Assembly: GCA_012729475.1 (NCBI GenBank)
Contig: JAAYDB010000181.1
Location: forward strand, 1 to 38,833
Length of the DNA stretch: 38,833 bases
DNA from: Bacteroidota bacterium
Lineage (GTDB): Bacteria > Bacteroidota > Bacteroidia > Bacteroidales > VadinHA17
Reading direction: 5' to 3'
Every line of letters begins with the position of its first letter. The stretch's first letter is position 1. Made by a program: the position numbers and the translations under genes. Shown piece after piece: positions 568-37,907 of this stretch. The notes under the pieces were generated by a model. The model did no database searches. It saw only the letters and a program-made list of their open reading frames with translations, and was not told where the DNA came from.

Positions 568-3500
568 TTAACGTGTTATAATAATAGTCTGAGCGGATCT
601 GATGAGTTTGTCCATAAGGACCTGAACAATATACACTCCGGAAGAGAGGTTGACAGGTATTTGTGTATTATAGGCACCCGGGTCGATCGTTGTTTCAAAG
701 CGGATATTTCCTGCCATATCAGCCACTCTCAGGGTTTGGGTCTCAGTTACCGGCTCCAGCACCATAACATTGATATGGTCCCGTGCAGGATTAGGGTATA
801 TTGATATATTTTCCGGATCATCAGGGCTATTACGGCTGTCTCCCGGAGAACCGAAGATTTTTATTTCGGAATAGTTATTCCAGGTATCCAGTTCGTTACC
901 ATGAGCTAGAAGCTTAACATAGGAATATTCTGTGTTCAGCTTGTCGGCAGGCAGATTGAAATTCTGGGGATATCCTGAGAAACCGCATGAGACACCATTC
1001 TGTAAAAGAGGTTCCCAGAAAATATTATCGCTGGAGGCAAAGAGATCGAAATATGATTCATAATGCTGGTCGGGCATGAGAGCCACCTGTATATGGTTGA
1101 TCTTCAGGGGTTCGGCCAGGCTTATGGTGATCCATTGGTTATCTCCTTCTACTGACCACCTTGTGTTCAGGTTATTATCATCAACATTAATGGGATGGTG
1201 GGGCTGAAAAAAATTGCTTGCCTCAATAATTTTTACGTTGCCCATCCGCAGTTCCGGTTTATAGGGTTTGTTGGTCACAGACAGACTTGTGGATGATTCA
1301 ACTTTCCCGTCGTTGACTGACAGTTGAAAAGTAAGAGTTTGCGGTGTTGACACAATGGGAGTGAGGAATCTTATTACAGGACCTGTTATGGATGATACAG
1401 GGATATCCGGCGGGGTCTTCCATGAGAAAGTAAGATCATCATTATCATCATCGATAGTTGCTGAGGCATCTATTTCACAGACAAATCCGGAAAAAACATC
1501 TTCTTCATAACTGACGGAAATATTTGGAGGACTGTTTTTCTCTGATGGGTCAGCGATATTATTTTTCACAGTTTCATCTGTAAGATTTGCAGCAAGCCCC
1601 AAAGAGCTTGTCTGCAGTGGTCTGCCCGGGTTCCGGGTATATGATACGCTTACCATATCCCCGAATAACACCGGGCTTGCGAGTATTAATATGACCTTGT
1701 TACCGGATATCTCTACTGAAATAACATTTCTGGCAATGCCGTTAACCATTACTGTAAAGTCGGAGGGCAGAGGCAGGGAAGAAGGATCAAGATTGACAGT
1801 GTAAGTTAACTCTACTTTTGTGGGAGAGAAGTTATTGATCAGTGAGCTGACGTACACAGGTACAACAGGCACAGGAGGATCAGGGTCGACCATCAGTATG
1901 ATTGAAGAAAAAGGAGCGAGAGTCACACTGTTGACATAGCTTTTACCTTTTACATCAAGCATTGGCTGTACCAAAGTAATACTTCTGTTGGATTCTGTTG
2001 AGTTATAATAAAAATCGATATCTGCTGTATCTTTTAAGGCAACAGGAGATATTTTAGAATTAAGATCCTGCTCATATAGTTTCTGCCACTCTTCAAGTGA
2101 TTTTGACATCACAGTTCCATTAATTCCTAAAATTATCGGTTTTGCATTATCTAAGGGTCTGGCATAGTAATTATTATCAAAATTGCCAAATTGGTCAAAA
2201 TCATTATTAATAGAATAAAGAAGAAGTGGCGTATAAGAGGGGTTTTTAGCAAATATGGTATTACTTGTTGTCAATGCAACATTTCTGGGAGGAGTACCTA
2301 AACCTCCTATTTCCTGCATTCTGATGCCACTTTGACAATCAAATACCGTATTGTTATTGATAACTACATTTTGACTGCCACTGATGAGTATTCCTCCCAT
2401 GTGTTTGACATTTGCAACCGTATTATCAGATATTTCAACACCTCCGGTAGTATAATAATCCAGATATATGCCTGCAACCCAATGGCTACTTTCGATTGGC
2501 TTACCACCAGGTGATCCTAGACCATTTAATACTATATTGTTTAGAAATTTCATATTTGAATATGTAGAGCCACCACCATACTGAATCCCACCACAATCCT
2601 CCTTAATAAAACCAAAAGTGTCAATAATATTATTTCTTATAATAATATTGTTACCTGAAAAATGTATTCCGCTGAAACCAGAATTTTTGACTCTGTTATA
2701 CTCTACAAATGAATTATTATTTCCTCTGAGATATATTGCTTTAGCGCTTTCCCAGAGCCCCTGACCCATACCGGGGAATAGACCTATATTTGTTACTTCA
2801 TTATTTCTGATATCTGTACTTTCACAATTGTCTTTCAGGCAAATTGCATTGTCATTGCAATGGTCAATGATGCAGTTATTTATTGTAATTTTATCTGATT
2901 CAAATGTCTTGATCCCATTATAACCACAAAAACTGATATCAGAGTTACTGATTATGCAATTATGATTATACCCTAAACCATTTATTGCCGTATTATTTGC
3001 TCCGGTAATTGTAAGATTCTCAATTTTGATATAAGTTACACCTCTGTCAAGAGATAATAAATAATCAAGAGGTGTCACTTTAACAAAATGAATAGTAGGA
3101 TTTTCAGAGCCGAAATACATATAAAAAGTCGATGTCTTCGTATCGTAGTACCATTCACCAAATTCATCAAGTGTCCTTTTATCATTCTGAATGAAATATC
3201 CCCAGTCTTTTCCCAGAGGGTAAGAAGTGGTTCCTCCTGAAAATGTAAGCGTAGTGCCTGTATGATTAGTAACCGGATATCTGCTTATTCTGTTACGGTT
3301 ACTATTCCTTACCACTACTTCTGCTCCTGTCCAGTTTATACCTGTTGTTGCTAATTCAGCATCTGTAAGAGCTGTAACACCGACATACGAATCAATAGAT
3401 GCCCATGTCTGAGGTTCAGGCCATACTTTGCTGTTAGGCCAACGCCCCATAGCATATTGTATTCCGTCAATTATTAACATTTCCGGACTTGATTCACAGG

Positions 3501-3852
3501 TTAACGAAGCCGAATAAATACCGCCGCCTACATCTGTCCATGAAGAAAGTGTGGTAAAACCTGTTATTATGGGTTTACCTCCACTTCCGTAAGATCCAAT
3601 TATGATAGGTGCTAAAGCTGATCCTGATTTTGTTATTTTAAGAGTCCCGTAAAATATATCACCACTTTTAAACAGGATTTTGTCACCGGGATTCAAAACA
3701 GAAAAAACAGAATTAACTTTGGCTATTGTCTGCCATGCTGTTGATTCTGACAGTCCATCGGCTGAATCGCTTCCTGTTGAGCTGACATAATAGTCAGTTG
3801 CAGAGGCGAATACGCTGATGATTGATAATGTAAATACAAGAATACACCTCAT
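568..3852 (-). CDS. Secreted right-handed beta-helix protein with T9SS sorting domain
   Basis: Protein of 1094 residues. Residues 1-18 look like a signal peptide (ends FASA). Then comes YYVSSTGSDSADG, a typical opening of parallel beta-helix (pectate-lyase-like) proteins, and about 550 residues of short Asn-rich turns (NNTAI, NNEVT, RNNII). Around 665-770 is one Ig-like SwmB/SWM-type repeat (FTVMVNG, GDMVSVSYT), then a cadherin/PKD-like segment. Around 880-1000 is an F5/8 type C carbohydrate-binding-like domain (NTRWS, QWITISL, YFDLFASSDN). The last 80 residues form a T9SS type A sorting domain (YPNPARDHINV, SGVYIVQV). Secretion and surface attachment or release are expected. Family members include polysaccharide lyases and epimerases, but I cannot point to catalytic residues. 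It is a close paralogue of the gene at 33657-37859 and divergent from asnB. Confidence 0.85.
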   Translation of the reverse strand: MRCILVFTLSIISVFASATDYYVSSTGSDSADGLSESTAWQTIAKVNSVFSVLNPGDKILFKSGDIFYGTLKITKSGSALAPIIIGSYGSGGKPIITGFTTLSSWTDVGGGIYSASLTCESSPEMLIIDGIQYAMGRWPNSKVWPEPQTWASIDSYVGVTALTDAELATTGINWTGAEVVVRNSNRNRISRYPVTNHTGTTLTFSGGTTSYPLGKDWGYFIQNDKRTLDEFGEWYYDTKTSTFYMYFGSENPTIHFVKVTPLDYLLSLDRGVTYIKIENLTITGANNTAINGLGYNHNCIISNSDISFCGYNGIKTFESDKITINNCIIDHCNDNAICLKDNCESTDIRNNEVTNIGLFPGMGQGLWESAKAIYLRGNNNSFVEYNRVKNSGFSGIHFSGNNIIIRNNIIDTFGFIKEDCGGIQYGGGSTYSNMKFLNNIVLNGLGSPGGKPIESSHWVAGIYLDYYTTGGVEISDNTVANVKHMGGILISGSQNVVINNNTVFDCQSGIRMQEIGGLGTPPRNVALTTSNTIFAKNPSYTPLLLYSINNDFDQFGNFDNNYYARPLDNAKPIILGINGTVMSKSLEEWQKLYEQDLNSKISPVALKDTADIDFYYNSTESNRSITLVQPMLDVKGKSYVNSVTLAPFSSIILMVDPDPPVPVVPVYVSSLINNFSPTKVELTYTVNLDPSSLPLPSDFTVMVNGIARNVISVEISGNKVILILASPVLFGDMVSVSYTRNPGRPLQTSSLGLAANLTDETVKNNIADPSEKNSPPNISVSYEEDVFSGFVCEIDASATIDDDNDDLTFSWKTPPDIPVSSITGPVIRFLTPIVSTPQTLTFQLSVNDGKVESSTSLSVTNKPYKPELRMGNVKIIEASNFFQPHHPINVDDNNLNTRWSVEGDNQWITISLAEPLKINHIQVALMPDQHYESYFDLFASSDNIFWEPLLQNGVSCGFSGYPQNFNLPADKLNTEYSYVKLLAHGNELDTWNNYSEIKIFGSPGDSRNSPDDPENISIYPNPARDHINVMVLEPVTETQTLRVADMAGNIRFETTIDPGAYNTQIPVNLSSGVYIVQVLMDKLIRSAQTIIITR

Positions 3853-6258: not shown

Positions 6259-7968
6259 ATGGGAAGTATACCATCACCTCTTAAATTGATTGATTGGAAA
6301 GTTGAAAAGATAGGCCTTATTGGACCCGGTATCGTTGGAATGCCAATGGCAGCCATGCTGGCACATGCACGGATCAGGATTGGTACAGAAAAACCTGCCA
6401 GGGTTGTTGTGGTTCAACGCGATTCAGTTAATTCCGGCTGGAAGGTTGAAGCTATTAACAATGGTAAATCAGTGATCGGAGGTATCGAACCCGGTCTTGA
6501 CATGATAACAAGGGATGCAGTGAGTAATGGATTACTGTACGCGACTCACGATTTCAACCAACTGTCAGATGCAGATGTTATCCTTGTTTCTGTCCAGACC
6601 GACAAGAAGGGTTTTGAACCCGATTATGGTCCCATGTTCGGAGCACTGGATAATCTTGCTAAGGCTCTGCAGAAAAAACCAAAGAATAAGATACCTCTTG
6701 TTATCATTGAATCAACACTTGCCCCCACCTCAATGGATACTCTTATCAGGGAACATTTCAATAAATATGGTCTTGTGGAGGGAAAGGATATTCTTCTGGG
6801 GAATAGCCCAAACAGAGTTATGCCCGGCAGACTGGTGGAGAGAGTACAGGCCTCTGATAAGCTTGCCGGTGGCTTGAACCCGGAAACGCCAAAGCTAATA
6901 GAACATCTTTATAAGAATATTGTAACGAAGGGAACTGTCTTTTGTACAAACAGTCTTACCGCTGAAATAGTGAAGACACTCGAAAATGCATACAGGGATG
7001 TGAGAGTTGCCTTTTCAACTGAAATAGTACGTTACTGCGACAGTAATAATATAGATTTCTATGAAGTGAGAGATAAAGTCAACGCATTGCTTTCTCAACC
7101 GGATAATGCAACAACAGACCCCAATGCTGTTCCAAGCGGTGGGATCCTTATCCCCATGCTGGGTGTAGGGGGACATTGCCTGCCCAAAGACGGTATCCTG
7201 CTATGGTGGAGAAAAATTGAGACAGGACTCGATACTTCCAATAGTCTTATTCTAAATTCCAGATTGATAAATGATGGTTCTCCCGTTCATACTTTCCGAC
7301 AGGCCGAAAAGGCTTTTGGAGATATGAAAGACAGTAAGATAGCATTACTGGGAGTGGCATACAGATTCAACTCGGAGGATACCCGTAACTCTCCCACACT
7401 GGCACTGGCTAATTATTTGAGAGAGGCTGGTATCAGTTATATGATGCACGATCCTTATGTGAAAAAAGATGACCAGAATTTATTGAAGTTTAAACAGGAT
7501 CCTTTTTTTACCAGGGACCTGAATGAAGCATTGAAAGATGCTGAATATGTATTTATGTGTTCTGCTCACAAAGAATACATTGAACGGTTTGATGAGATAA
7601 TTTCTTCCGGCAGTGTCAAAGGCTTGATGGATGGATGTAATATTTATTCTGCCAGTCAGTTTGATGGCCAAAAGATAGGATATGCCGGTATCGGAAGAGG
7701 ATCAGAAAAGCCTGATGATGAGTTTATTCAATTTGTCTTTGAAAGTTTCAGGGCAATGGAAAAAGGACTGGCCAACGAATTGATGGATCTCATTGATTTC
7801 TATAATACCAACTATGCTTTTGACGAATATAACAAGGTAAAATTTTCAGATGTACAGCGTCTGGCAAAAACCTGTTCCACAGGATGTGAGATAGCGAATA
7901 CGGGCAGGATTCAAATGGTTCCTGAATATAATAGATTTAAATCACGTCTGGTAGAATGTGCGACCTGA
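6259..7968 (+). CDS. UDP-glucose/UDP-ManNAc dehydrogenase family protein, long form
   Basis: 569 residues against about 420-450 in the family. The N-terminal Rossmann motif is GPGIVGMP at 22-29, an unusual form of the common GLGYVGLP. Middle signatures are SPNRVMPGR and ENAYRDVRVAF; the catalytic Cys is Cys307 in GGHCLPKD. The C-terminal UDP-binding domain holds LGVAYRFNSEDTRNSP. These features resemble WecC (UDP-ManNAc to UDP-ManNAcA, NAD-dependent) more than UDP-glucose dehydrogenase. With wecB and a WecG-family transferase in the same locus, UDP-ManNAcA is the best-guess product. About 90 extra C-terminal residues (roughly 478-569), with Cys539, Cys543 and Cys567, lie outside the usual fold and are unexplained. 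The stop codon overlaps the first unit of a heptamer array. Confidence 0.82.
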   Translation: MGSIPSPLKLIDWKVEKIGLIGPGIVGMPMAAMLAHARIRIGTEKPARVVVVQRDSVNSGWKVEAINNGKSVIGGIEPGLDMITRDAVSNGLLYATHDFNQLSDADVILVSVQTDKKGFEPDYGPMFGALDNLAKALQKKPKNKIPLVIIESTLAPTSMDTLIREHFNKYGLVEGKDILLGNSPNRVMPGRLVERVQASDKLAGGLNPETPKLIEHLYKNIVTKGTVFCTNSLTAEIVKTLENAYRDVRVAFSTEIVRYCDSNNIDFYEVRDKVNALLSQPDNATTDPNAVPSGGILIPMLGVGGHCLPKDGILLWWRKIETGLDTSNSLILNSRLINDGSPVHTFRQAEKAFGDMKDSKIALLGVAYRFNSEDTRNSPTLALANYLREAGISYMMHDPYVKKDDQNLLKFKQDPFFTRDLNEALKDAEYVFMCSAHKEYIERFDEIISSGSVKGLMDGCNIYSASQFDGQKIGYAGIGRGSEKPDDEFIQFVFESFRAMEKGLANELMDLIDFYNTNYAFDEYNKVKFSDVQRLAKTCSTGCEIANTGRIQMVPEYNRFKSRLVECAT

Positions 7969-8036
7969 GCCCTGAGCTCTGAGCCCTGAGCCCTGAGCCC
8001 TACGCTTTACGCTCTCCGCTCTACGCTTTACGCTAT
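7967..8036. repeat. Array of ten 7-bp tandem units
   Basis: Ten consecutive heptamers without slippage. Five are GAGCCCT type (one is GAGCTCT), then five are ACGCTTT type (variants ACGCTCT, CCGCTCT, ACGCTAT). The array starts within the TGA stop of the dehydrogenase gene and ends 34 bases before the ATG of the FAD oxidoreductase gene. It has no coding role. A change in unit number would alter the spacing between two operon genes but not their frames. Confidence 0.85.
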
Positions 8037-8070: not shown

Positions 8071-9381
8071 ATGTCAGACAAAAAAAACTCCTGGGGCATA
8101 ATCGGTGGCGGTATTATGGGGATGACTTTAGCCCTTCGTCTTTCACAAAAAGGCTATAAGGTAACGGTTTTCGAATCTTCCCCGAAGCCCGGAGGACTTG
8201 CCGGTTCTGTTGAAATGAACGGAGTGACATGGGACAGGTTCTATCATGTAATACTTATGTCGGACCTGGAAACAAGAAAGATACTAAGTGAAATAGGACT
8301 GGATGACGAATTGAACTGGGTTGAGACAAAGACAGGCTTTTTTTCGGGCGGCAGACTTTATTCAATGTCAAACATCTTTGAATATCTGAAATTTCCTCCC
8401 ATAAATATTTTTGGCAAGTTCCGTCTGGGCCTTACTATCATAGCTGCATCACTGATCAGAGACCGGAGGAGGATGGAAAAGATCCCTGTAGAAAAATGGC
8501 TTAAGAGATGGTCAGGAAAAAGTGTTTTCGATAAGATATGGCTACCCTTACTTAAAGCCAAACTGGGAGATCATTATAAAGATACTTCAGCTTCATTTAT
8601 ATGGTCAACGATCCAGAGGATGTATGCAGCAAGACGGACCGGACTGAAAAAAGAGATGTTCGGATATGTAAGCGGAGGATATGAAAGAATTAACAGGTCT
8701 TTTGAGGAAAAGCTGAAAAATCTGGGTGTGGAGGTTTTGGTTAATAAACATGTAAGCCTGGTTGAACAGGGTATCAATGATAGAATAACAGTTAAGACAG
8801 AATCATCAGATACTTATGATTTTGATCATGTAATTTCAACACTTCACTCAGGTGATTCAGTGAAGATAGCTCCTTCGCTGAATGCAGAAGAAGCCGAACG
8901 GCACAGATCAATAAAATATCTCGGAGTAGTTTGTCCCCTGGTTTTACTAAGAAAACCGGTATCAAATTATTACGTAACGAACATAACTGATACCTGGCCC
9001 CCTTTTACGGGAATTATCGAAATGACTGCACTGGTGGACCCGAAAGAATTGAATGATCTGAATCTTGTTTATCTGCCAAAGTATGTGGAACCAGACCATG
9101 AAATCTTTGGAAAATCCAAAACAGAATTACGTGAATACTTCCTGAAATCCTTATTTAAAATGTACCCTGCATTGTCAGAAGATGATATTGTTCACTTCAG
9201 CATAGCTTCTGAAAAAAGGGTTTTTGCTCTTCCGTCATTGCATTATTCTGAAATGCTTCCTTCTGTAAGCACATCATTAAAAGGGTATTATATTATAAAC
9301 TCGGCACAGATAGTAAATTCAACTCTGAATGTAAACGAGACTATCCGGATAGCTGAGAAGAAACTTGAAGAGATACTCTGA
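8071..9381 (+). CDS. FAD-dependent oxidoreductase (amine oxidase / protoporphyrinogen oxidase-like)
   Basis: 436 residues. The N-terminal dinucleotide-binding motif is GGGIMG at 12-17, followed by the acidic strand end VFESSPKPGGLAG, typical of the flavin amine oxidase/phytoene desaturase/UDP-galactopyranose mutase superfamily. A C-terminal FAD-contacting segment is NAQIVNSTLNVNETIR. No membrane segment is evident. Members like this are common in polysaccharide loci, but their substrate is usually unknown. A sugar or lipid-linked sugar oxidation or isomerisation is possible. It follows the dehydrogenase with only the heptamer array between them, and a non-coding stretch of about 400 bases follows. 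Confidence 0.8.
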   Translation: MSDKKNSWGIIGGGIMGMTLALRLSQKGYKVTVFESSPKPGGLAGSVEMNGVTWDRFYHVILMSDLETRKILSEIGLDDELNWVETKTGFFSGGRLYSMSNIFEYLKFPPINIFGKFRLGLTIIAASLIRDRRRMEKIPVEKWLKRWSGKSVFDKIWLPLLKAKLGDHYKDTSASFIWSTIQRMYAARRTGLKKEMFGYVSGGYERINRSFEEKLKNLGVEVLVNKHVSLVEQGINDRITVKTESSDTYDFDHVISTLHSGDSVKIAPSLNAEEAERHRSIKYLGVVCPLVLLRKPVSNYYVTNITDTWPPFTGIIEMTALVDPKELNDLNLVYLPKYVEPDHEIFGKSKTELREYFLKSLFKMYPALSEDDIVHFSIASEKRVFALPSLHYSEMLPSVSTSLKGYYIINSAQIVNSTLNVNETIRIAEKKLEEIL

Positions 9382-9789
9382 GTCATAATCCGGGATAAAA
9401 AACAATTTATTCGTCAAAATAGAAGCCATTTTGATGAATGAGGGTTTTGTTATGACCTATCAGTGACGGATGATGATCTTCGGCAGACTTATAAGGATAT
9501 ACGGATATAACTTGTTCAAATCTCCATCAAATGGTTAATATATCTGTTTGAATCTAAGCTTTCCTCCGGTTAACTTTAACAGCAATATTATTGCACTTAG
9601 TTGGTCCCTGGTTCATTGTACTCTTAGGATTTTTCTGAAATTTACAAAATAAGGTAATGGTCATATTACCATATAGATACAGTAAAATAACATGGGACTG
9701 ACGGGGCGGAAGCATGTCCGCGCCGGAGGCACGGAAAGATAAAAGACAAAAGACAAAAGACAAAAGGAGAAAGATAAAAGTAAAGAAGG
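9382..9789. other. Non-coding gap (408 bp) with hairpin and heptamer array
   Basis: No credible gene; open frames on the minus strand here lack family features. It holds a small hairpin at 9706-9721 (GCGGA, loop AGCATG, TCCGC) in a locally GC-rich patch (about 9699-9733), followed at once by the purine heptamer array. It interrupts an otherwise close-packed operon, which suggests that the four-helix-bundle cassette was inserted here. Confidence 0.55.
9734..9782. repeat. Purine-rich heptamer array upstream of four-helix-bundle gene
   Basis: Seven in-phase 7-bp units: GAAAGAT, three copies of AAAAGAC, AAAAGGA, GAAAGAT, AAAAGTA. The purine-rich tract runs on through the ATG at 9790 into the first codons (MEEKKND). 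It is the inverted counterpart of the pyrimidine array after the gene: GGAGAAAGATAAAAG at 9766-9780 matches GGAAAAAGATAAAAG on the complement of the downstream array at 14 of 15 positions. Confidence 0.8.
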
Positions 9790-10143
9790 ATGGAAGAAAA
9801 GAAGAATGATCTGTGTGAGAGGCTTTTTGAATTTGCTGTCAGGGTTATTAAGTTTCTCAGGACTTTGCCGTTTACACCTGAAAATAAAACTATAAGGGTA
9901 CAATTATCAAAGGCTGCATGTTCTTCCGGAGCGAATTATGAAGAATCTCAGGCCGGATCATCAAAACCTGATTTTAATAATAAGGTCCGGATCTCATTAA
10001 GGGAAATGAGAGAATCAAATTATTGGTTACGGATAATCAAAAGAACTGTTGAAGAGATTAACCAATCAGAATTAGATTATTTGATAAAAGAATCCTCAGA
10101 ACTTAAGAACATCCTTGGTTCTATAGTCCAAAAATCCAGATAA
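9790..10143 (+). CDS. S23-type four-helix-bundle protein
   Basis: 117 residues, all predicted helical. It carries the family pattern of 23S rRNA intervening-sequence (S23/TIGR02436) proteins: DLCERLFEFAVRVIKF, then LSKAACSSGANYEESQAG, then KVRISLREMRESNYWLR. The fold is shared with Avd, the accessory protein of diversity-generating retroelements, but no reverse transcriptase or template/variable repeat is visible in the window. The biochemical function of free-standing members is not established. It is out of place among sugar genes and is bounded by inverted heptamer arrays, so it is probably an inserted cassette rather than part of the pathway. The purine-rich bases before the ATG could act as a ribosome-binding site but are part of the array. 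Confidence 0.9.
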   Translation: MEEKKNDLCERLFEFAVRVIKFLRTLPFTPENKTIRVQLSKAACSSGANYEESQAGSSKPDFNNKVRISLREMRESNYWLRIIKRTVEEINQSELDYLIKESSELKNILGSIVQKSR

Positions 10144-10180
10144 TTAAATAATAAAATATAAAATTCTCAAGTCAATATTC

Positions 10181-10257
10181 CTTTTATCTTTTTCCTTTTA
10201 TCCTTTATCTTCCTCTTCATACATTTATCTTTTTCCTTTTATCTTTTATCTTTAATT
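10181..10257. repeat. Pyrimidine-rich heptamer array downstream of four-helix-bundle gene
   Basis: About eleven 7-bp units on the plus strand, mainly CTTTTAT, CTTTTTC and TTTTATC, with one single-base phase slip near 10222. On the complement these read as GATAAAA and GGAAAAA units, the same type and sense as the array before the gene, so the two arrays form long imperfect inverted repeats around it. The array ends 8 bases before the ATG of the next gene. Confidence 0.8.
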
Positions 10258-10265
10258 TCCATTTT

Positions 10266-11222
10266 ATGTCAACTCCCAAACCCCTTGCCGCTATCTCTCT
10301 CGACCTTGACAACCAGTGGTCTTATATGAAGATCCATGGCGATGAGGGATGGGAAGAGTATCAGTCATATTTCGATATTTTTATTCCTCATGTATTGGAT
10401 CTGCTTGATGAGCTGGAGTTGAAGATCACTTTTTTTATTGTTGGAAAAGACGCTGAATCAGAAGATAACAGGAAATACCTTAGAATGATAACAGAAAGAG
10501 GGCATGAAGTTGGTAATCACTCATATAGCCATGAATCCTGGTTACAGCGTTATTCTTACGATGAAATTGAGAAAGAAATAGTAGCTGCTGAGGATGCTAT
10601 TGAGAAAGCGACCGGGCAGAGACCGAAAGGATTTCGTGGACCTGGATTCAGCTGGAGTTACGATCTTCTGAAAATACTTGAGAAAAGAGGATATTTGTAT
10701 GATGCTTCAACATTACCAACTTACATAGGGCCTTTAGCCAGAAAATATTATTTCATGAAATCTGATCTCTCGAAAAAAGAGAAGAAAGCAAGAAAAGAAC
10801 TTTTTGGTAAATTCAGTGAGGGTTTCAGGAAGCTTAAACCATATTTTCACGATCTGGGTGCGGGAAAGAAAATTGCTGAAATACCTGTAACTACAATGCC
10901 TCTGTTTAAAACCCCATTTCATTTGAGTTACCTGATCTACTTAAATAATATTTCACCGGTTTTAATGAAATTATATTTGGGCTTAGCTCTTTTTCTGTGC
11001 AGAATCACCAGAACTCCGGTAAGCTTTTTACTGCATCCTCTCGATATAATCGGAGGTGACCAGATCACTCAGCTTGCATTTTTCCCGGGGATGACTGTGA
11101 GCAGCGATGAAAAAGTAAAGGTTTTCAAGTATGTGATCAGCCGTCTGATGCGATATTTTAAGATCATTTCCCTGAAAAACCTTTCAGAATTATATTATCA
11201 TGATAATCCTGTTTCCCGCTAA
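10266..11222 (+). CDS. NodB-fold polysaccharide (or lipid-linked sugar) deacetylase
   Basis: 318 residues. The NodB fold is shown by SLDLDNQ (catalytic Asp13 and metal Asp15) and by the metal His pair in HSYSH (His85 and His89), followed by RPKGFRGPGFSW. No signal peptide is seen, so action is at the cytoplasmic face or in the cytosol. Metal-dependent de-N-acetylation or deformylation of a sugar is expected. The next two genes are a polyprenyl-phosphate-sugar synthase-like GT2 and a GT39-like membrane transferase. This order recalls ArnD-ArnC-ArnT and Francisella NaxD-FlmF2-FlmK, where the deacetylase acts on an undecaprenyl-phosphate sugar. That substrate is inferred from context only. Confidence 0.83.
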   Translation: MSTPKPLAAISLDLDNQWSYMKIHGDEGWEEYQSYFDIFIPHVLDLLDELELKITFFIVGKDAESEDNRKYLRMITERGHEVGNHSYSHESWLQRYSYDEIEKEIVAAEDAIEKATGQRPKGFRGPGFSWSYDLLKILEKRGYLYDASTLPTYIGPLARKYYFMKSDLSKKEKKARKELFGKFSEGFRKLKPYFHDLGAGKKIAEIPVTTMPLFKTPFHLSYLIYLNNISPVLMKLYLGLALFLCRITRTPVSFLLHPLDIIGGDQITQLAFFPGMTVSSDEKVKVFKYVISRLMRYFKIISLKNLSELYYHDNPVSR

Positions 11223-16548: not shown

Positions 16549-17481
16549 ATGATCAGTGTTATAAATCTTCTCAACCAAAAAGAAAGTCAACTAGCAGCTT
16601 ATTCACAATATGATTTCTTAAATGAAATTGATCAACTGAAATTAACAAAAGAGACTGTTGTTGATCCTCTTATAAATGAGTTAAACAGCAAGATGATTGA
16701 AATAGATGAAATCAACATTGCTAATGAAACTCATTTCTTTTTATATAAGAAACTTGATTGGGATACAGAATATTTTGGATTTCCGGTTTATTCAATCAAA
16801 ATGGTCTTATATAACCATAATGATCTTCAGGTACTGAATAAAGCTATTAATGAGTTCATTAAGCACAAAATAAAACCAGGTGAATATTGGTTCACCAATG
16901 TGCCTTCCGATGAAATACTAATTGTACAGGCCTTATGCAACACCTTATTCAAACTTGTAGAGACCAGACTTGGATTTTATCTTGGATCCATTTCGGATTT
17001 TGAATCGGAACATTATCCGGTAAGGATGGCAATTATTGAGGATGCAGATGATCTCAGAAAGGTTTCGATGAAAATGAGGAATAGATATGACAGGGTACAT
17101 GCTGATCCGGCATTTTCAACCGAACAGGCAGATAAATACCTTGGTAAATTTGTCGAAGAATCACTGAAAGGATTTGCTGATTTCGTACTTGTACCAGATA
17201 TTGGAGATATCAGGCCTTTTGGTTTTCTGGCATGGAAAAAACCTGTCGAAGTCCTGGGGAAAAGAATTTCAAAAATTGTTCTTACTGCTGTTGACAATTC
17301 GATTCAAAGAGGCTGGCTTTTTAAACTATTAACAGAGATGAAGCACCTTGCTAAAGGCCTGGGAACTGATTATATAACAACTATAACACAGGCTCCAAAT
17401 AAGCCGGCAATTCATATATATCAGAAAGCCGGATTTGTACTTAAATCTGTCACACATATCTTTTCAATTAAACTATCATGA
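16549..17481 (+). CDS. WecD-like GNAT acetyltransferase for an amino-deoxy sugar nucleotide
   Basis: 310 residues. An N-terminal region includes [14 protein letters not shown], the hallmark of WecD-type dTDP-amino-sugar acetyltransferases. The C-terminal GNAT fold contains [23 protein letters not shown] and [13 protein letters not shown], where the last part is the usual acetyl-CoA-side Asn/Tyr region. It should acetylate the amino group put on by the next gene's product. In the FdtA-FdtB-FdtC pathway that job is done by a hexapeptide enzyme (FdtC), so a WecD-like enzyme here is a replacement. The stop overlaps the FdtB start by 4 bases (ATGA). Confidence 0.82.
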
Positions 17482-18590
17482 TAAAATTTCTGGATCTGAA
17501 AAAGATAAACGATAGCTATGAACCAAATATCTCAGATGCTATAACGAAAGTGCTTGATTCCGGATGGTATCTGCTTGGCAATGAAGTTAACGCTTTTGAA
17601 TCCGAATATGGTAGTTTCATCGGATCGAAGTATTGCATAGGTGTTGCTAATGGGTTGGATGCGCTAAGGCTCATTCTAAAAGCTTATATTGAGATGGGAA
17701 TTATGAAGGAAGGTGATGAAATTCTTGTTCCGGCAAATACTTACATAGCATCAATTCTAGCTATTACTGACAACCGACTTGTACCTGTTCTTGTTGAACC
17801 TGATTATTCTACGTATAATATTGATCCCTTTAAAATTAAGGAAAAAATAAACTCCCGTACAAGGGGAATAATGATAGTCCATCTCTATGGACAAAATGCC
17901 ATGCACCCTGAAATTAGGAGAATTGTAAAGGAAAATAATCTTAGACTCATTGAAGATAATGCTCAGGCACAAGGATGTATTTACGGAGATAAACGTACAG
18001 GATCAATCGGTGATGCTGCCGGACACAGTTTCTATCCAGGTAAGAACCTTGGTGCATTGGGGGATGCCGGAGCTGTAACAACAGATGATGATGAACTTGC
18101 AGAAGTGGTGCGTACTATGGCAAATTATGGATCAAGAATTAAATACCAGAATGTTTATAAAGGCCTTAATTCCCGTCTTGATGAGATCCAGGCAGCTATC
18201 CTCCGTGTCAAACTTCCCCGACTCGATGCTGATAACCGGCGCCGCTGGAAAATAGCTGAATATTACAACAAGAATATTAATAATCCTGAGATAATTTTAC
18301 CCTGCAACCTGCAACATGCACCCTGCACCATGGACCATGTCTGGCACCTATTTGTCATCCGAACCTCCAATCGTGAAAAACTTCAGCAATATCTTCATAG
18401 TAACAACATTCAGACTTTGATTCACTATCCTGTACCTCCTCATAAACAGGATGCCTATAAAGAGCTGAATCATTTAAGCTTTCCCATTACGGAAAAAATA
18501 CATAACGATGTTTTGAGTCTGCCTATCAGTCCTGTAATGACTGATGAAGAAGTCAGTATGGTTGTTGAGTGTATCAATAATTACAAATGA
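17478..18590 (+). CDS. fdtB: FdtB-like DegT/DnrJ/EryC1 sugar aminotransferase
   Basis: 370 residues, PLP-dependent fold type I. The lysine that holds PLP is Lys189 in [16 protein letters not shown], and EDNAQAQGC precedes it. The HYPVPPHKQ and [12 protein letters not shown] stretches match enzymes that convert dTDP-3-keto-6-deoxyhexose to the 3-amino sugar. It is coupled by 4-base overlaps to both the acetyltransferase before it and the flippase after it. Oddly, residues around 275-287 ([13 protein letters not shown]) are encoded by a run of degenerate 7-bp repeats. They lie just before the conserved HVWHLF strand, in a spot that varies among homologues. Confidence 0.87.
18301..18342. repeat. 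Heptamer repeats inside the fdtB-like coding sequence
   Basis: Five clear 7-bp units in phase (CCTGCAA, CCTGCAA, CATGCAC, CCTGCAC, CATGGAC) and a sixth partial one (CATGTCT). They lie wholly within coding sequence and keep the frame open; six units equal 14 codons. The translated stretch is Cys/His-rich and unlike the rest of the protein. Confidence 0.75.
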
Positions 18591-33656: not shown

Positions 33657-36600
33657 TTAATTAATAACAACCAGTTTTTGGCTGAACAATATAAGCTTTC
33701 CTGATACTACCCTTACATAATATACGCCCGAATCAAAACTTATCGGAATCTGAATGTTACTTATTCCACTATCCAACCGGCATGTAAAACAAATTTTCCC
33801 TGCAGAATCATAGATATTTAAAATTTGAGATCCTGTAATTTCTTTCTTAAAAGTAATATTTATAAATTCCCTGGCAGGATTAGGATAGACTGATACAACA
33901 GATGTGCCGGTAGCGTTCTTGTTGATAGATCCGAACACATTTATTTCAGAAATATAGTTCCAGTTGTCCAGCGCGTTACCATTACAAACCAACTTTAAAA
34001 AGGAATATTCGTTATCAGACCTGTTTGCCGGGAAATCAAAAACCTGATTAGCTCCTGAGAAATTACAGGAAGAAGCCTTCATGAGAACAGGTTCCCACAT
34101 CAAATTGTCATTTGAAGCATAGATATCAAAATATGATTCATATTTCTGATCTGTCAAAAATGCAATATTCAGATGGCTTATTTTCATCGGATCAGCAAGC
34201 TTAAGCCAAAGCCATTGATCGGTACCTGCTGCGGACCATTTGGTTGCAATACTGTTATCAGTAACATTATCGGGATAATCAGACAAATTATAATTGCTGG
34301 CTAGTACTTCTAGTATCCTTCCCTTTTCAATTTCAGGTTTATAAGGCATAATGCTTATAGGGATGTTTTTAATATGCTTTGTAAAACCATCACTGATACT
34401 TAAGGTGAATTCAATAATCTCCTGTCCTGTAACAACCGGTGAAAGATATCTGATCTTCGGACCGCTTGTTGAAGAAATATTTACACCAGGTGGAGCAATC
34501 CAGTCAAAGGATAGTAAACCGTCACCTTTATCACTGATCACAGAAGCATCTATTTCATAAACAAATCCTGATAAAGCAACAGGGTCAAAGTAAGCATCCG
34601 CAATAGTACCGGTGTTCCCTGATTTTGAATCGGATATATTATTAGTTACAGGCTGATTGCTTATTGAAACAGCCAGTCCACCTGAAAGAGACTGTAGGGG
34701 ATTTATGACAGGTTTTGAATAGGAAACGGTTACAAAATCTCCTGGAGCTACTCCTTCAATAAGATATAACCTTACAGTGTTCCCCTTGATCATTACAGTT
34801 TTTACATGTTTCTGGACCGAATTAGCCATCACAGTGAAAGCCGAAGCAGGGGGGACAATATCAGCCAGAGTATCGTCATAATTCATTACCATTATTGTAG
34901 GATATGTAGGTATTGTTGAACTAATATAAACAGGAGGGCTACCTGTTATTTTATTAGTTACCATTTGATTGATTATTGATTCAGCCAGCCCGCCTTCAGC
35001 AGATTGGAGTGGATTTGTACCTGGTATTGTATATGAAACAGTTACAATATCCCCGGGATTGACTCCTTCTTCAAGATATAGCCTGACAGTTTTTCCGGAA
35101 ATCATCACTGTCTTGACTGGTTTCTGCACAGAATTGGCCATTACGGTAAATGCCGAAGCAGGAGGTACAATATCAGCCAGAGTAATGTTATAATTCATTA
35201 CCATTAAGTTAGGATAAGTTGGAATTGAGGAACTAATATATTCAGGAGGCGAACCGGTAATACAATTGACGACAGGCTTATTGCTTATAGATGCTGCAGT
35301 AATTCCCAGAGCAGACTGCAATGGATTAGTTTCTGGTTTTGTATAAGAAATAGTAACAATATCTCCATATTTTACCCCGGTTTCAAGATATAACCTTACC
35401 ATTGCTCCGTCAATAATCACTGATTTAATTGTTCTCGGTACTGAATTAACTAGTACCGTAAAAGCTGAAAGAGCCGGGACTATGTTTGCAAGGTTTTCGC
35501 TGTATTTCATAACCATAAGTGAAGGATAGGTCGGAATTGAGGAACTAATGTATTCCGGACCTGAACCTGTAATATAATTGTCAACAGGCTTATTGCTTAT
35601 AGATGCCGCGGGAATTCCCATTTCAGACTGTAAGGGATTAGTTGCTGGTTTTGAATAAGAAACAGTTACAATATCCCCGGGAGCTATACCTTCTTCAAGA
35701 TATAACCTTACAGTATTTCCGGAAATCATTACTGTCTTGACTATTTTTGGAACTGAATTGGCAATAACAGAAAAAGCCGAAGCAGGCGGTACTATATTAG
35801 CCAGAGTTTCGCTATATTTCATCACCATAAGCGTAGGATATGTTGGAAATGATGAACTGATATATTCGGGAGCACTAATCGGATCAGGATCAGCCATCAG
35901 AACAACTGATGTGAAGGGTGCCAGAGTGATTGAGCTTAGATATTTCGTTCCTTTTATATCTATCATCGGCTTTGAGAGAGTAAAAAGCTTGTTAGAACTT
36001 GTTGCATTATAGTAAAAATCAATATCTGCTGTGTCTGTTAAAGCAATAGGTGATATTCTGGAATTGAGGTCCATTCCGGAAAGTGTCTGCCAATCAGTGA
36101 GGGATAATGAAGTTACAACACCGCCGATTCCTGTTCTGATTGGTTTCGCATTGTTTAATGGTCTTGCGTAGTAATTATTATCGAAAGAACCGAATTGATC
36201 CAGATCGTTTTTAGTGGAATAAAGTGATAATGGTATATTAGTTACGGTTTTAGCAAAAATTATATTACCGGTCATCGTAATATTTCTGGGAGGAGTGGGA
36301 GTAGCTGTGCCTCCTAATTCCTGCATTCTGACTCCGCTTGTGCACTCAAACACAGTATTGTTCATCACAACAACATTTTGACTGCCGCTAATTAGAATGC
36401 CTGCTGTGTGCTTGATATTAGCCACTGTATTATTGGAGATTTCAAATCCTCCCGTTGTGTAATAATCAAGTTCTATTCCAACCACCCAGTGAGTGGTCCC
36501 GTTTGGCATGCCACCGGGCGATCCAAGTCCATTTAAGACTATATTATTCATAACTTGCATATTCGAAAAAGCGGATCCACTGGAATATTGTATTCCTCCA

Positions 36601-37859
36601 CAGTCCTCTTTAATGAAACTGAAGGTGTCTATAAAATTATTCCTTACAATTACATTATTGCCCGAAAAATGTATCGCGCTATAACCTGAATTCCTGATTT
36701 TATTGTATTCAATAATGGCGTCATCAGTTCCCCTGAGGTAAATTGCTTTAGCGCTTTCCCAGAGTCCCTTTCCAATACCGGGGAATAGGCCGGTATTTTT
36801 TATTTCATTATTTCCGATATAAGTATTTTCACAATTGTCTTTCAGGGAAATTGCATTGTCATTGCAATTGTCGATAGTGCAGCCATTTATTTTTAAATCT
36901 TTTGATTCAAAAGTATAAATTCCATTATGTCCGCATAAACTAATATTACAGTTTTCGATTTTACTGTTGTGATTATATCCTAAACCATAAACTGCAGTAT
37001 TATTTGATCCCTTAAGTGATAAATTCTCAATCTGAATATTAGTAATACCTCTCTCAAGTCTGATTAAAGCATTAATTGTTGTTACTTCAACAGAATAACT
37101 GGCAGGATTTTCAGAGCCGAAATACATATAAAAAGTCGATGTCTTTGTATCATAATACCATTCACCAAATTCATCAAGTGTCCTTTTATCATTCTGAACG
37201 AAATACCCCCAGTCTTTTGCCAGAGGGTAAGAGGTGCTTCCTCCTGAAAATGCAAGTGTATTACCTGTGTGATTAGTAACAGGATATCTGCTTATTCTGT
37301 TACGGTTACTATTCCTTACCACTAGTTCTGCTCCTGCCCAGTTTATACCTGTTTCAGCTAATTCAGCATCTGTAAGAGAAGTAACTCCGACATACGAATC
37401 AATAGATGCCCATGTCTGAGGTTCAGGCCATACTTTGCTGTTTGGCCACCTCCCCATTGCATATTGTATGCCGTCAATTGTTACCATTTCCGGACTTGAT
37501 TCGCAGGTTAATGAAGCCGAATAAATACCGCTGCCAACATTAGTCCAGGAGGAAATTGTAGTAAAGCCGGTAATTATAGGTTTATCTCCTGTGCCATAGG
37601 CGCCAAAATAAATAGGGGACGCTGATGTTCCTGATTTCGTGATTTTTATTGTCCCATGAAATGTGTCTCCCCTTTTAAAGAGTATTCTGTCACCGGGTTT
37701 AATAATGTAAAATGAAGAATTCAGTTTTGAAATCGTTTTCCAGGGTGTTGATTCCGAAAGGCCATTTGCTGAGTCGTTACCTGAAGAGCTGATGTAATAG
37801 GTGGTAGCTGAAGCATTCAGGTACAACGCAATAAATAACAGCGTAAGAGTCTTTTTCAT
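33657..37859 (-). CDS. Secreted right-handed beta-helix protein with four SWM repeats and T9SS sorting domain
   Basis: 1400 residues from the ATG at 37857-37859; an in-frame TTG one codon upstream is less likely. Order: signal peptide (LNASA, about 1-20), beta-helix opening YYISSSGNDSANG, Asn-rich beta-helix to about 655, four Ig-like SwmB/SWM-type repeats (about 662-1078), a cadherin/PKD-like segment, an F5/8C-type domain (about 1190-1310; ATKWSAAGTDQW, YFDIYASNDN) and a T9SS type A domain (YPNPAREFINITF, SGVYYVRVV). It closely resembles the protein at 568-3852; 56 bases at 37387-37442 are identical to 3380-3435. The size difference is almost fully explained by three extra repeats. Glycan binding or cleavage is possible; no catalytic residues are assigned. 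Confidence 0.86.
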   Translation of the reverse strand: MKKTLTLLFIALYLNASATTYYISSSGNDSANGLSESTPWKTISKLNSSFYIIKPGDRILFKRGDTFHGTIKITKSGTSASPIYFGAYGTGDKPIITGFTTISSWTNVGSGIYSASLTCESSPEMVTIDGIQYAMGRWPNSKVWPEPQTWASIDSYVGVTSLTDAELAETGINWAGAELVVRNSNRNRISRYPVTNHTGNTLAFSGGSTSYPLAKDWGYFVQNDKRTLDEFGEWYYDTKTSTFYMYFGSENPASYSVEVTTINALIRLERGITNIQIENLSLKGSNNTAVYGLGYNHNSKIENCNISLCGHNGIYTFESKDLKINGCTIDNCNDNAISLKDNCENTYIGNNEIKNTGLFPGIGKGLWESAKAIYLRGTDDAIIEYNKIRNSGYSAIHFSGNNVIVRNNFIDTFSFIKEDCGGIQYSSGSAFSNMQVMNNIVLNGLGSPGGMPNGTTHWVVGIELDYYTTGGFEISNNTVANIKHTAGILISGSQNVVVMNNTVFECTSGVRMQELGGTATPTPPRNITMTGNIIFAKTVTNIPLSLYSTKNDLDQFGSFDNNYYARPLNNAKPIRTGIGGVVTSLSLTDWQTLSGMDLNSRISPIALTDTADIDFYYNATSSNKLFTLSKPMIDIKGTKYLSSITLAPFTSVVLMADPDPISAPEYISSSFPTYPTLMVMKYSETLANIVPPASAFSVIANSVPKIVKTVMISGNTVRLYLEEGIAPGDIVTVSYSKPATNPLQSEMGIPAASISNKPVDNYITGSGPEYISSSIPTYPSLMVMKYSENLANIVPALSAFTVLVNSVPRTIKSVIIDGAMVRLYLETGVKYGDIVTISYTKPETNPLQSALGITAASISNKPVVNCITGSPPEYISSSIPTYPNLMVMNYNITLADIVPPASAFTVMANSVQKPVKTVMISGKTVRLYLEEGVNPGDIVTVSYTIPGTNPLQSAEGGLAESIINQMVTNKITGSPPVYISSTIPTYPTIMVMNYDDTLADIVPPASAFTVMANSVQKHVKTVMIKGNTVRLYLIEGVAPGDFVTVSYSKPVINPLQSLSGGLAVSISNQPVTNNISDSKSGNTGTIADAYFDPVALSGFVYEIDASVISDKGDGLLSFDWIAPPGVNISSTSGPKIRYLSPVVTGQEIIEFTLSISDGFTKHIKNIPISIMPYKPEIEKGRILEVLASNYNLSDYPDNVTDNSIATKWSAAGTDQWLWLKLADPMKISHLNIAFLTDQKYESYFDIYASNDNLMWEPVLMKASSCNFSGANQVFDFPANRSDNEYSFLKLVCNGNALDNWNYISEINVFGSINKNATGTSVVSVYPNPAREFINITFKKEITGSQILNIYDSAGKICFTCRLDSGISNIQIPISFDSGVYYVRVVSGKLILFSQKLVVIN
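34626..35873. repeat. Four tandem 312-bp repeats coding for SWM-type domains
   Basis: The equivalent Tyr codons of the P-x-Y-I-S-S motif lie at 35862, 35550, 35238 and 34926, exactly 312 bases apart. Each unit codes for 104 residues with FxVxxNSV, VRLYLxxGV, GDxVTVSY and NPLQS. The units have diverged but are clearly homologous; the paralogue at 568-3852 carries only one such domain. Confidence 0.9.
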
Positions 37860-37907
37860 CAATACAATACAATAATATTACTATACAGAAACCTTAGTCT
37901 TTATTCA

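Follow-up and report, generated by a model that had tools for sequence, protein, structure and literature searches.

Introduction

In the RAYT-REP system, which is the nearest analogue in logic to the locus described here, the gene lies between inverted repeats, and orthologous RAYT genes of related strains are accompanied by different REP classes, the abundance of the repeats appearing to depend on the cognate gene (PMC3686654). The S23 protein family is found in a likewise enclosed position within 23S rRNA genes, as its members are encoded in intervening sequences between terminal inverted repeats (PMC4990558). A homologous family, Avd, belongs to diversity-generating retroelements and is essential to retrohoming (PMC10053308). 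For the free-standing form of S23 we found no settled role.

The foldback elements Galileo and Tetris of Drosophila, which are eukaryotic DNA transposons, end in long inverted stretches built from tandem repeats and may or may not enclose a gene; we know of no protein common to these elements and to S23 cassettes. Heptamer direct repeats are also present in cyanobacteria (STRR) and are comparable to TAACTGA arrays. The latter consist of 7-bp intergenic units in some Beggiatoaceae, Cyanobacteria and Bacteroidetes and differ from the arrays treated below in having a single fixed unit that is almost always in direct orientation; the term S23 is absent from the available text of that report (PMC4679880). 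In a passage of PMC10910872, the S23 family appears only as a domain label. Among the matches listed in our search of an incomplete literature collection, we recognised no paper on arrays at free-standing S23 genes. The parts of the arrangement are already known, namely the S23 protein, heptamer arrays and, in 23S genes, inverted repeats that enclose S23 ORFs.

Here, we analyse a stretch of 38,833 nucleotides from a Bacteroidota bacterium (the window), in which an S23 gene lies between two inverted arrays. In our judgement, the window probably holds one copy of a widespread cassette that is composed of an S23 gene and two inverted arrays of 7-9-bp repeats and sits between operon genes, and the array unit probably goes with the S23 lineage as a part of this reading as a whole.

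Results

The S23 gene and its inverted arrays in the window

The features of the locus are as follows:

7964-8034, + strand: gene-less arrays, CCTGAGC then CTACGCT, at the next junction upstream (TRF)
8071-9381, + strand: FAD amine oxidase, upstream neighbour (Pfam profile match)
9735-9786, + strand: left (gene-5') array, unit AAAGACA/AAAAGAT, coding strand rich in G and poor in C (TRF, inverted partner)
9790-10143, + strand: S23 / 23S-rRNA-IVP-type four-helix-bundle gene, 117 aa (PF05635, TIGR02436, PDB 2rld)
10178-10267, + strand: right (gene-3') array, unit CTTTTATC/TTTTATC, inverted copy type of the left array (TRF rows 10178-10254, alignment)
10266-11222, + strand: polysaccharide deacetylase, downstream neighbour (Pfam profile match)

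The sequence-only reading had identified a 117-residue S23-type gene at 9790-10143, and two protein families confirm this: PF05635 (E 9.4e-15, 55.2 bits, curated cut-off 33.8), which is the sole Pfam match at E<=0.001, and TIGR02436 'four helix bundle protein' (E 9e-22, 77.4 bits, cut-off 24). In addition, PDB 2rld is related over residues 4-115 (E 4.3e-14). The gene lies between two protein genes and not in a 23S rRNA gene, as no rRNA family was matched at E<=1 within 9380-10300. By family, the element appears to lack a transposase of its own: the S23 protein matches no transposase family, and the one other ORF of at least 80 aa that reaches in part between the arms is antisense (9661-9903, 80 aa). 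A role in anti-phage defence found no support, with 0 PADLOC families at E<=0.01 for three S23 proteins including that of the window.

On the left side, TRF reports AAAGACA x4.6 at 9735-9766 with 96% matches and longer-period rows up to 9784. Three TRF rows describe the right array, one of period 14 (10178-10247), one of period 7 (10178-10206) and a weak one of period 6 that runs to 10254; the array extends to the start of the polysaccharide deacetylase gene (10266). The best local alignment of the two arrays is inverted and pairs 9739-9786 with 10214-10267 at a score of 50, compared with 16 in the direct comparison; dinucleotide shuffles reached at most 37, and 0/2000 attained 50. The complementarity amounts to 76% over 51 nt, or 88% over 34 nt. 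The earlier proposal that the arrays are inverted copies of one type therefore holds.

Elsewhere in the window, another 7-bp array, ACCCTGC, is located at 18299-18339 inside ORF 17478-18590, 312-bp tandem repeats at 34635-35872 lie inside the large ORF 33657-37862 (- strand), and ORF 568-3852 carries a Por secretion tail, which, like the look of the relatives, points to Bacteroidota.

A hairpin upstream of the left array

The sequence-only reading had also drawn attention to a small GC hairpin just upstream. This hairpin does exist at 9706-9721 (GCGGA/TCCGC), but seems unrelated to the cassette: the same sequence is found 5' of the deacetylase gene in G056, at the same junction and without S23, and it recurs elsewhere in the genus, so we set it aside as a cassette part. 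With up to 2 mismatches, the motif TGGGACTGACGGGGCGGAAGCATG (window 9693-9716) is present in 18/60 genomes, which are 18/36 of the same genus and 0/24 of other genera (genus assignments being inferred), and has no Rfam match at E<=1. It is possibly a genus-specific repeat or RNA.

Inverted arrays are a general feature of S23 genes

PF05635 is present in 157/198 sampled genomes of the window's phylum and also in records of other phyla. In a sample of 20 fetched stretches plus the window, an array of period 6-10 was found within 300 bp at 19/21 scorable S23 genes compared with 27/202 controls, for which non-S23 genes at a distance of over 1.5 kb from every S23 were taken. A larger pool held 134 distinct S23 genes, 128 of them with usable flanks; it includes orthologues, so that not all loci are independent. 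Here, the flanks were inverted copies of each other in 91/128 loci and direct copies in 20/128 at an arm score of at least 24, with 7.3% inverted matches for between-locus pairs, and inverted in 80/128 and direct in 16/128 at a score of at least 28, with 1.4% for shuffles. Control genes had inverted flanks in 66/661 cases at the lower and 17/661 at the higher threshold.

The pattern extends to named genomes of several phyla. From 80 loci kept in this set, 4 were dropped for short flanks, and the 76 usable ones gave 44 inverted and 12 direct pairs at a score of at least 28. With phyla read from record titles, inverted arms at a score of at least 24 were seen in 34/45 loci labelled Bacteroidota and in 21/31 labelled non-Bacteroidota or unplaced, this second group including Candidate Phyla, Clostridia, Planctomycetes, Chloroflexi, Proteobacteria, two Ignavibacteria and three unplaced bacteria. 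Clear inverted arms at a score of at least 28 are absent from 48/128 pool loci and 32/76 named loci. In two published genomes of Flavobacterium columnare, a four helix bundle gene is located between guanylate kinase and nicotinate nucleotide adenylyltransferase according to a table of phage elements (PMC5524665), a position that fits the operon-junction pattern.

Arms and gene also share a common anatomy. The best period, determined for 116 loci with clear arms, was 7 in 63, 8 in 43 and 9 in 6, and shuffled arms had no period preference. On the gene-ward strand, the left arm contained more G than C in 114/120 loci (ties left out), which is a polarity of 114:6 compared with 9:6 in the few controls with inverted flanks. 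The S23 gene itself is under purifying selection, with a median dN/dS of 0.15 (48 pairs) and 0.04 (12 pairs).

The window junction in relatives

A search for the amine oxidase at E<=1e-60 in 98 genomes, including the window's own, returned matches in 7. The deacetylase lies 3' of the amine oxidase in 6/6 relatives, UDP-glucose dehydrogenase lies 5' of it in 5/6 fetched stretches, and asnB is present in the two long ones. In G019, G063 and G005, the amine oxidase/deacetylase junction is empty, the aligned ends being 16-31 nt apart as compared by eye between relatives too divergent for base-exact junctions. The other relatives have different contents at this junction: G043 carries an S23 gene whose arms are (GTGAGTA)n and (ACTCATT)n, G023 an inverted array pair without a gene, and G056 ~525 nt of sequence that includes short pieces of array but lacks S23. 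No BLASTP match at 1e-3 was obtained between the window's S23 protein and that of G043, which places two distant S23 lineages in the same junction. Variation of this kind is also seen at the next junction upstream, which is short in G019 and G056, has arrays without a gene in the window and G043, and holds an S23 cassette in G023; the gene-less arrays of the window (7964-8034) do not look mutually inverted.

Arms follow the S23 lineage

Two series of sites were assembled via a neighbour gene: an NdpA-like gene (our label) in one genus, found in 60/61 genomes, and a thiolase in one family, found in 49/77. From the 30 best loci fetched per series, 14 NdpA-like and 11 thiolase loci with an intact S23 gene were used. 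In a FastTree tree, S23 at the NdpA-like site is monophyletic (18/18), and the largest pure clade at the thiolase site comprises 12 of 25 tagged genes, the tag including S23 genes elsewhere in the fetched loci.

At both sites, the arms of one locus match each other better than arms across loci (permutation p=0.0001), and for pairs with S23 less than 75% identical the within-locus match was the better one in 51/54 and 34/34 cases. Because relatives share arms, only 3/14 and 4/11 loci have their own pair as the top match of the row; the claim that arms follow S23 therefore rests on the divergent pairs and on partial correlations. With neighbour divergence held constant, arm similarity correlates with S23 identity at a partial r of 0.74 (p=0.0002, 14 loci) and 0.80 (p=0.0004, 11 loci), compared with 0.13 and -0.16 for the neighbour gene. 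Thus, the arms track the S23 lineage rather than the neighbour gene.

Individual loci illustrate this behaviour. At the NdpA-like site, L203 has a neighbour gene closely related to those of L201, L202, L205 and L206 (pS 0.29-0.35), yet its S23 is only 60-61% identical to theirs, and S23 and arms belong together to another cluster. The same applies to L221 at the thiolase site (neighbour pS 0.26-0.36, S23 56-57% identical), again with S23 and arms of another cluster. Conversely, S23 proteins of a single lineage, with 68-83% identity, are found at four sites, L039 (G001), L030 (G016), L043 (G043) and L051 (G023). Their genes lie next to those of a DegT aminotransferase and a DUF4249 protein, next to that of a WbqC-like protein, and in the two window-region junctions (G043, G023). 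Arms of the (N)ATGAGN type are present on both sides in three of these copies; L051 matches on the right only, its left arm being a different unit. Among pairs filtered as different sites, by a rough filter that may retain some same-site pairs, an arm match of at least 24 was found in 2-4% below 50% S23 identity, 9% at 50-60%, 20/60 (33%) at 60-70% and 4/8 above 70%.

Within four relatives, 8/110, 6/72, 0/30 and 1/20 cross-locus arm comparisons matched, so units mostly differ between places. In the window's own genome, 4/6 comparisons among three S23 copies matched, and units there are therefore not clearly locus-specific. G162 has arms at only 1/6 S23 copies. Movement looks rare, since the S23 copies of one genome that were compared have mostly diverged; recent burst transposition was rejected, given these divergent copies and the age of the sites.

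Gene-less arrays

Arrays also occur without a gene, and 47 of them match the S23-linked arrays of their own genome above chance (p=0.0005), the strongest matches coming from few genomes, mainly G097, G081 and G096. One S23 cassette of G081 has the unit AACCTTA, which recurs in that genome at ~13 places, mostly single-armed, and is absent from 18/21 other genomes searched. Stretches of S23-less genomes contained 9 arrays in 617 kb compared with 29 in 460 kb for stretches of S23-bearing genomes, in samples that are small and unevenly spread over lineages and that contain no S23 gene. G200 is an exception, having 13 S23 genes, yet 3 arrays in 100 kb, of which one has period 7.

Junctions of the two site series that lack S23 reached a self-inverted score of at least 21 in 5/16 cases at the thiolase site and in 10/13 at the NdpA-like site. 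A comparison of these junctions with the S23 arms of the same site was set aside, as it is confounded by shared coding sequence. At the NdpA-like site, L195, L196, L199, L204, L210, L214 and L219, all without S23, have a hairpin with a ~7-nt periodic stem (AAGANNN), which may be a terminator or a relic.

Discussion

The sequence-only reading had suggested that gene and arrays are one mobile unit, and our data support this idea: arms track the S23 lineage, and lineage and arms together recur at different sites. Arrays are enriched at S23 genes (19/21 vs 27/202) and so are inverted arms (80/128 vs 17/661), and G019, G063 and G005 have empty sites at this junction. Neither of the two outcomes named beforehand as refuting the idea, a lack of array enrichment near S23 homologues and a gene kept in place in all relatives of the operon with unrelated flanks, was obtained. 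A factor coded elsewhere, as that reading also proposed, may move the unit; the window's own genome has two Y1_Tnp hits. Taken together, lineage-linked arms, recurrence at several sites and a variable junction indicate that gene and arrays behave as one exchangeable cassette. Comparison of loci shows gene and both arms present or absent, swapped, and placed at new sites as one unit, and a cassette would seem to be long-lived at a site, at times exchanged whole and at times appearing at new gene junctions.

Regarding the described systems, the S23 class shares with RAYT-REP the inverted copies of its own repeat class at the gene and related dispersed copies. It differs in that the S23 protein, a four-helix bundle, has no Y1 domain match and is not an HUH enzyme by family, and in that its arms are 7-9-bp tandem arrays whereas REPs are tagged palindromes. 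Unlike the 23S rRNA intervening sequences, S23 cassettes stand between protein genes, have tandem-array arms and show no G.U signature. The retroelements of Avd have a reverse transcriptase, whereas the window's own genome (G000, 97% completeness) has no RVT_1 hit at E<=0.001; NF033474 is matched by L006 (E 3.3e-12, 46.6 bits, below the cut-off of 80) and L043 (2e-8), and not by the window S23 protein at E<=0.01. A reverse transcriptase acting in trans was rejected as a general requirement, since none was detected in G000 and 43/98 genomes have an RVT_1 hit.

Since S23 ORFs are known from transcribed 23S genes, the arms may be thought to act in RNA: they would pair in the operon transcript, RNase III would excise the S23 part, and selection would preserve the complementarity. 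In Coxiella, the 23S intervening sequence is indeed an S23 ORF between terminal inverted repeats that form a 28-bp stem, and it is cleaved by RNase III in vitro (PMC4990558). The gene 5' of S23 is also co-directional more often (115/125) than adjacent ORF pairs in general (538/744), whereas the gene 3' of it (85/107) shows no significant difference from these pairs. However, RNA pairing tolerates G.U, so that G.U-type should exceed A.C-type mismatches if it preserved the arms, and both types are about equally frequent (95 vs 101; named set 34 vs 43). This mismatch spectrum gives no support to RNA-stem covariation, and the arm likeness rather looks like shared repeat units in DNA. As the 7-8-bp tandem units, the 114:6 polarity and the dispersed single-armed arrays also stay unexplained, we regard an RNA-stem element as unlikely. 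We judge it similarly improbable that a Y1/RAYT-type transposase coded elsewhere cuts array hairpins and that S23 is a mere accessory or passenger. REPs around RAYT genes share the inverted layout (PMC3686654), and Y1_Tnp is found in 73/80 S23-bearing compared with 7/18 S23-less genomes (98 genomes; Fisher p=5e-6). Nevertheless, 7 S23-bearing genomes are without a Y1_Tnp match, and the correlation may stem from general mobile-element load or shared ancestry. From 30 fetched Y1_Tnp loci, 10 were skipped as too short; inverted flanks at a score of at least 40 occur in 3 of the 20 scorable ones, though without arrays, and 0/20 have arrays within 300 bp, for which reason we rejected Y1_Tnp as the gene to which the arrays belong.

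Ordinary intergenic short tandem repeats, generated by replication slippage and template switching with S23 as a chance passenger, would be a simple explanation, as heptamer arrays (TAACTGA) are described from other bacteria with S23 unmentioned in the text available (PMC4679880) and gene-less arrays are also present in the genomes studied here. This seems very improbable to us in view of the excess of arrays at S23 genes over controls, the array-poor stretches of S23-less genomes, and arms that follow the S23 lineage and recur with it at different sites.

Returning to the exchangeable cassette, the mechanism that we infer is that an S23 oligomer would recognise its own repeat unit and keep the two arms in contact, as hairpin or duplex DNA, so that a host polymerase, nuclease or recombinase could copy or exchange the cassette and extend the arrays. 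By analogy, a putative DNA-binding S23 protein without known enzymatic activity would then take the place of the transposase in a RAYT-REP-like logic. A wider and more tentative reading, which we consider possible, is that S23 proteins are lineage-specific array-recognition proteins of phylum-crossing mobile cassettes without a known transposase, each recognising its own polarised array of 7-9-bp units and directing how it is made or exchanged, and that 23S intervening sequences and Avd are specialised offshoots.

Our data suggest a so far unrecognised kind of mobile DNA cassette without a known moving enzyme; for every element family that we tested, the cassette lacks a defining property. Provided that gene and arrays form a single unit, the S23 family gains a testable substrate, namely its own flanking array, and some of the short tandem arrays found in these genomes would be explained. 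Such a unit would also offer an origin for S23-bearing 23S intervening sequences and for Avd, and it would point to a mobile element without a recognised transposase.
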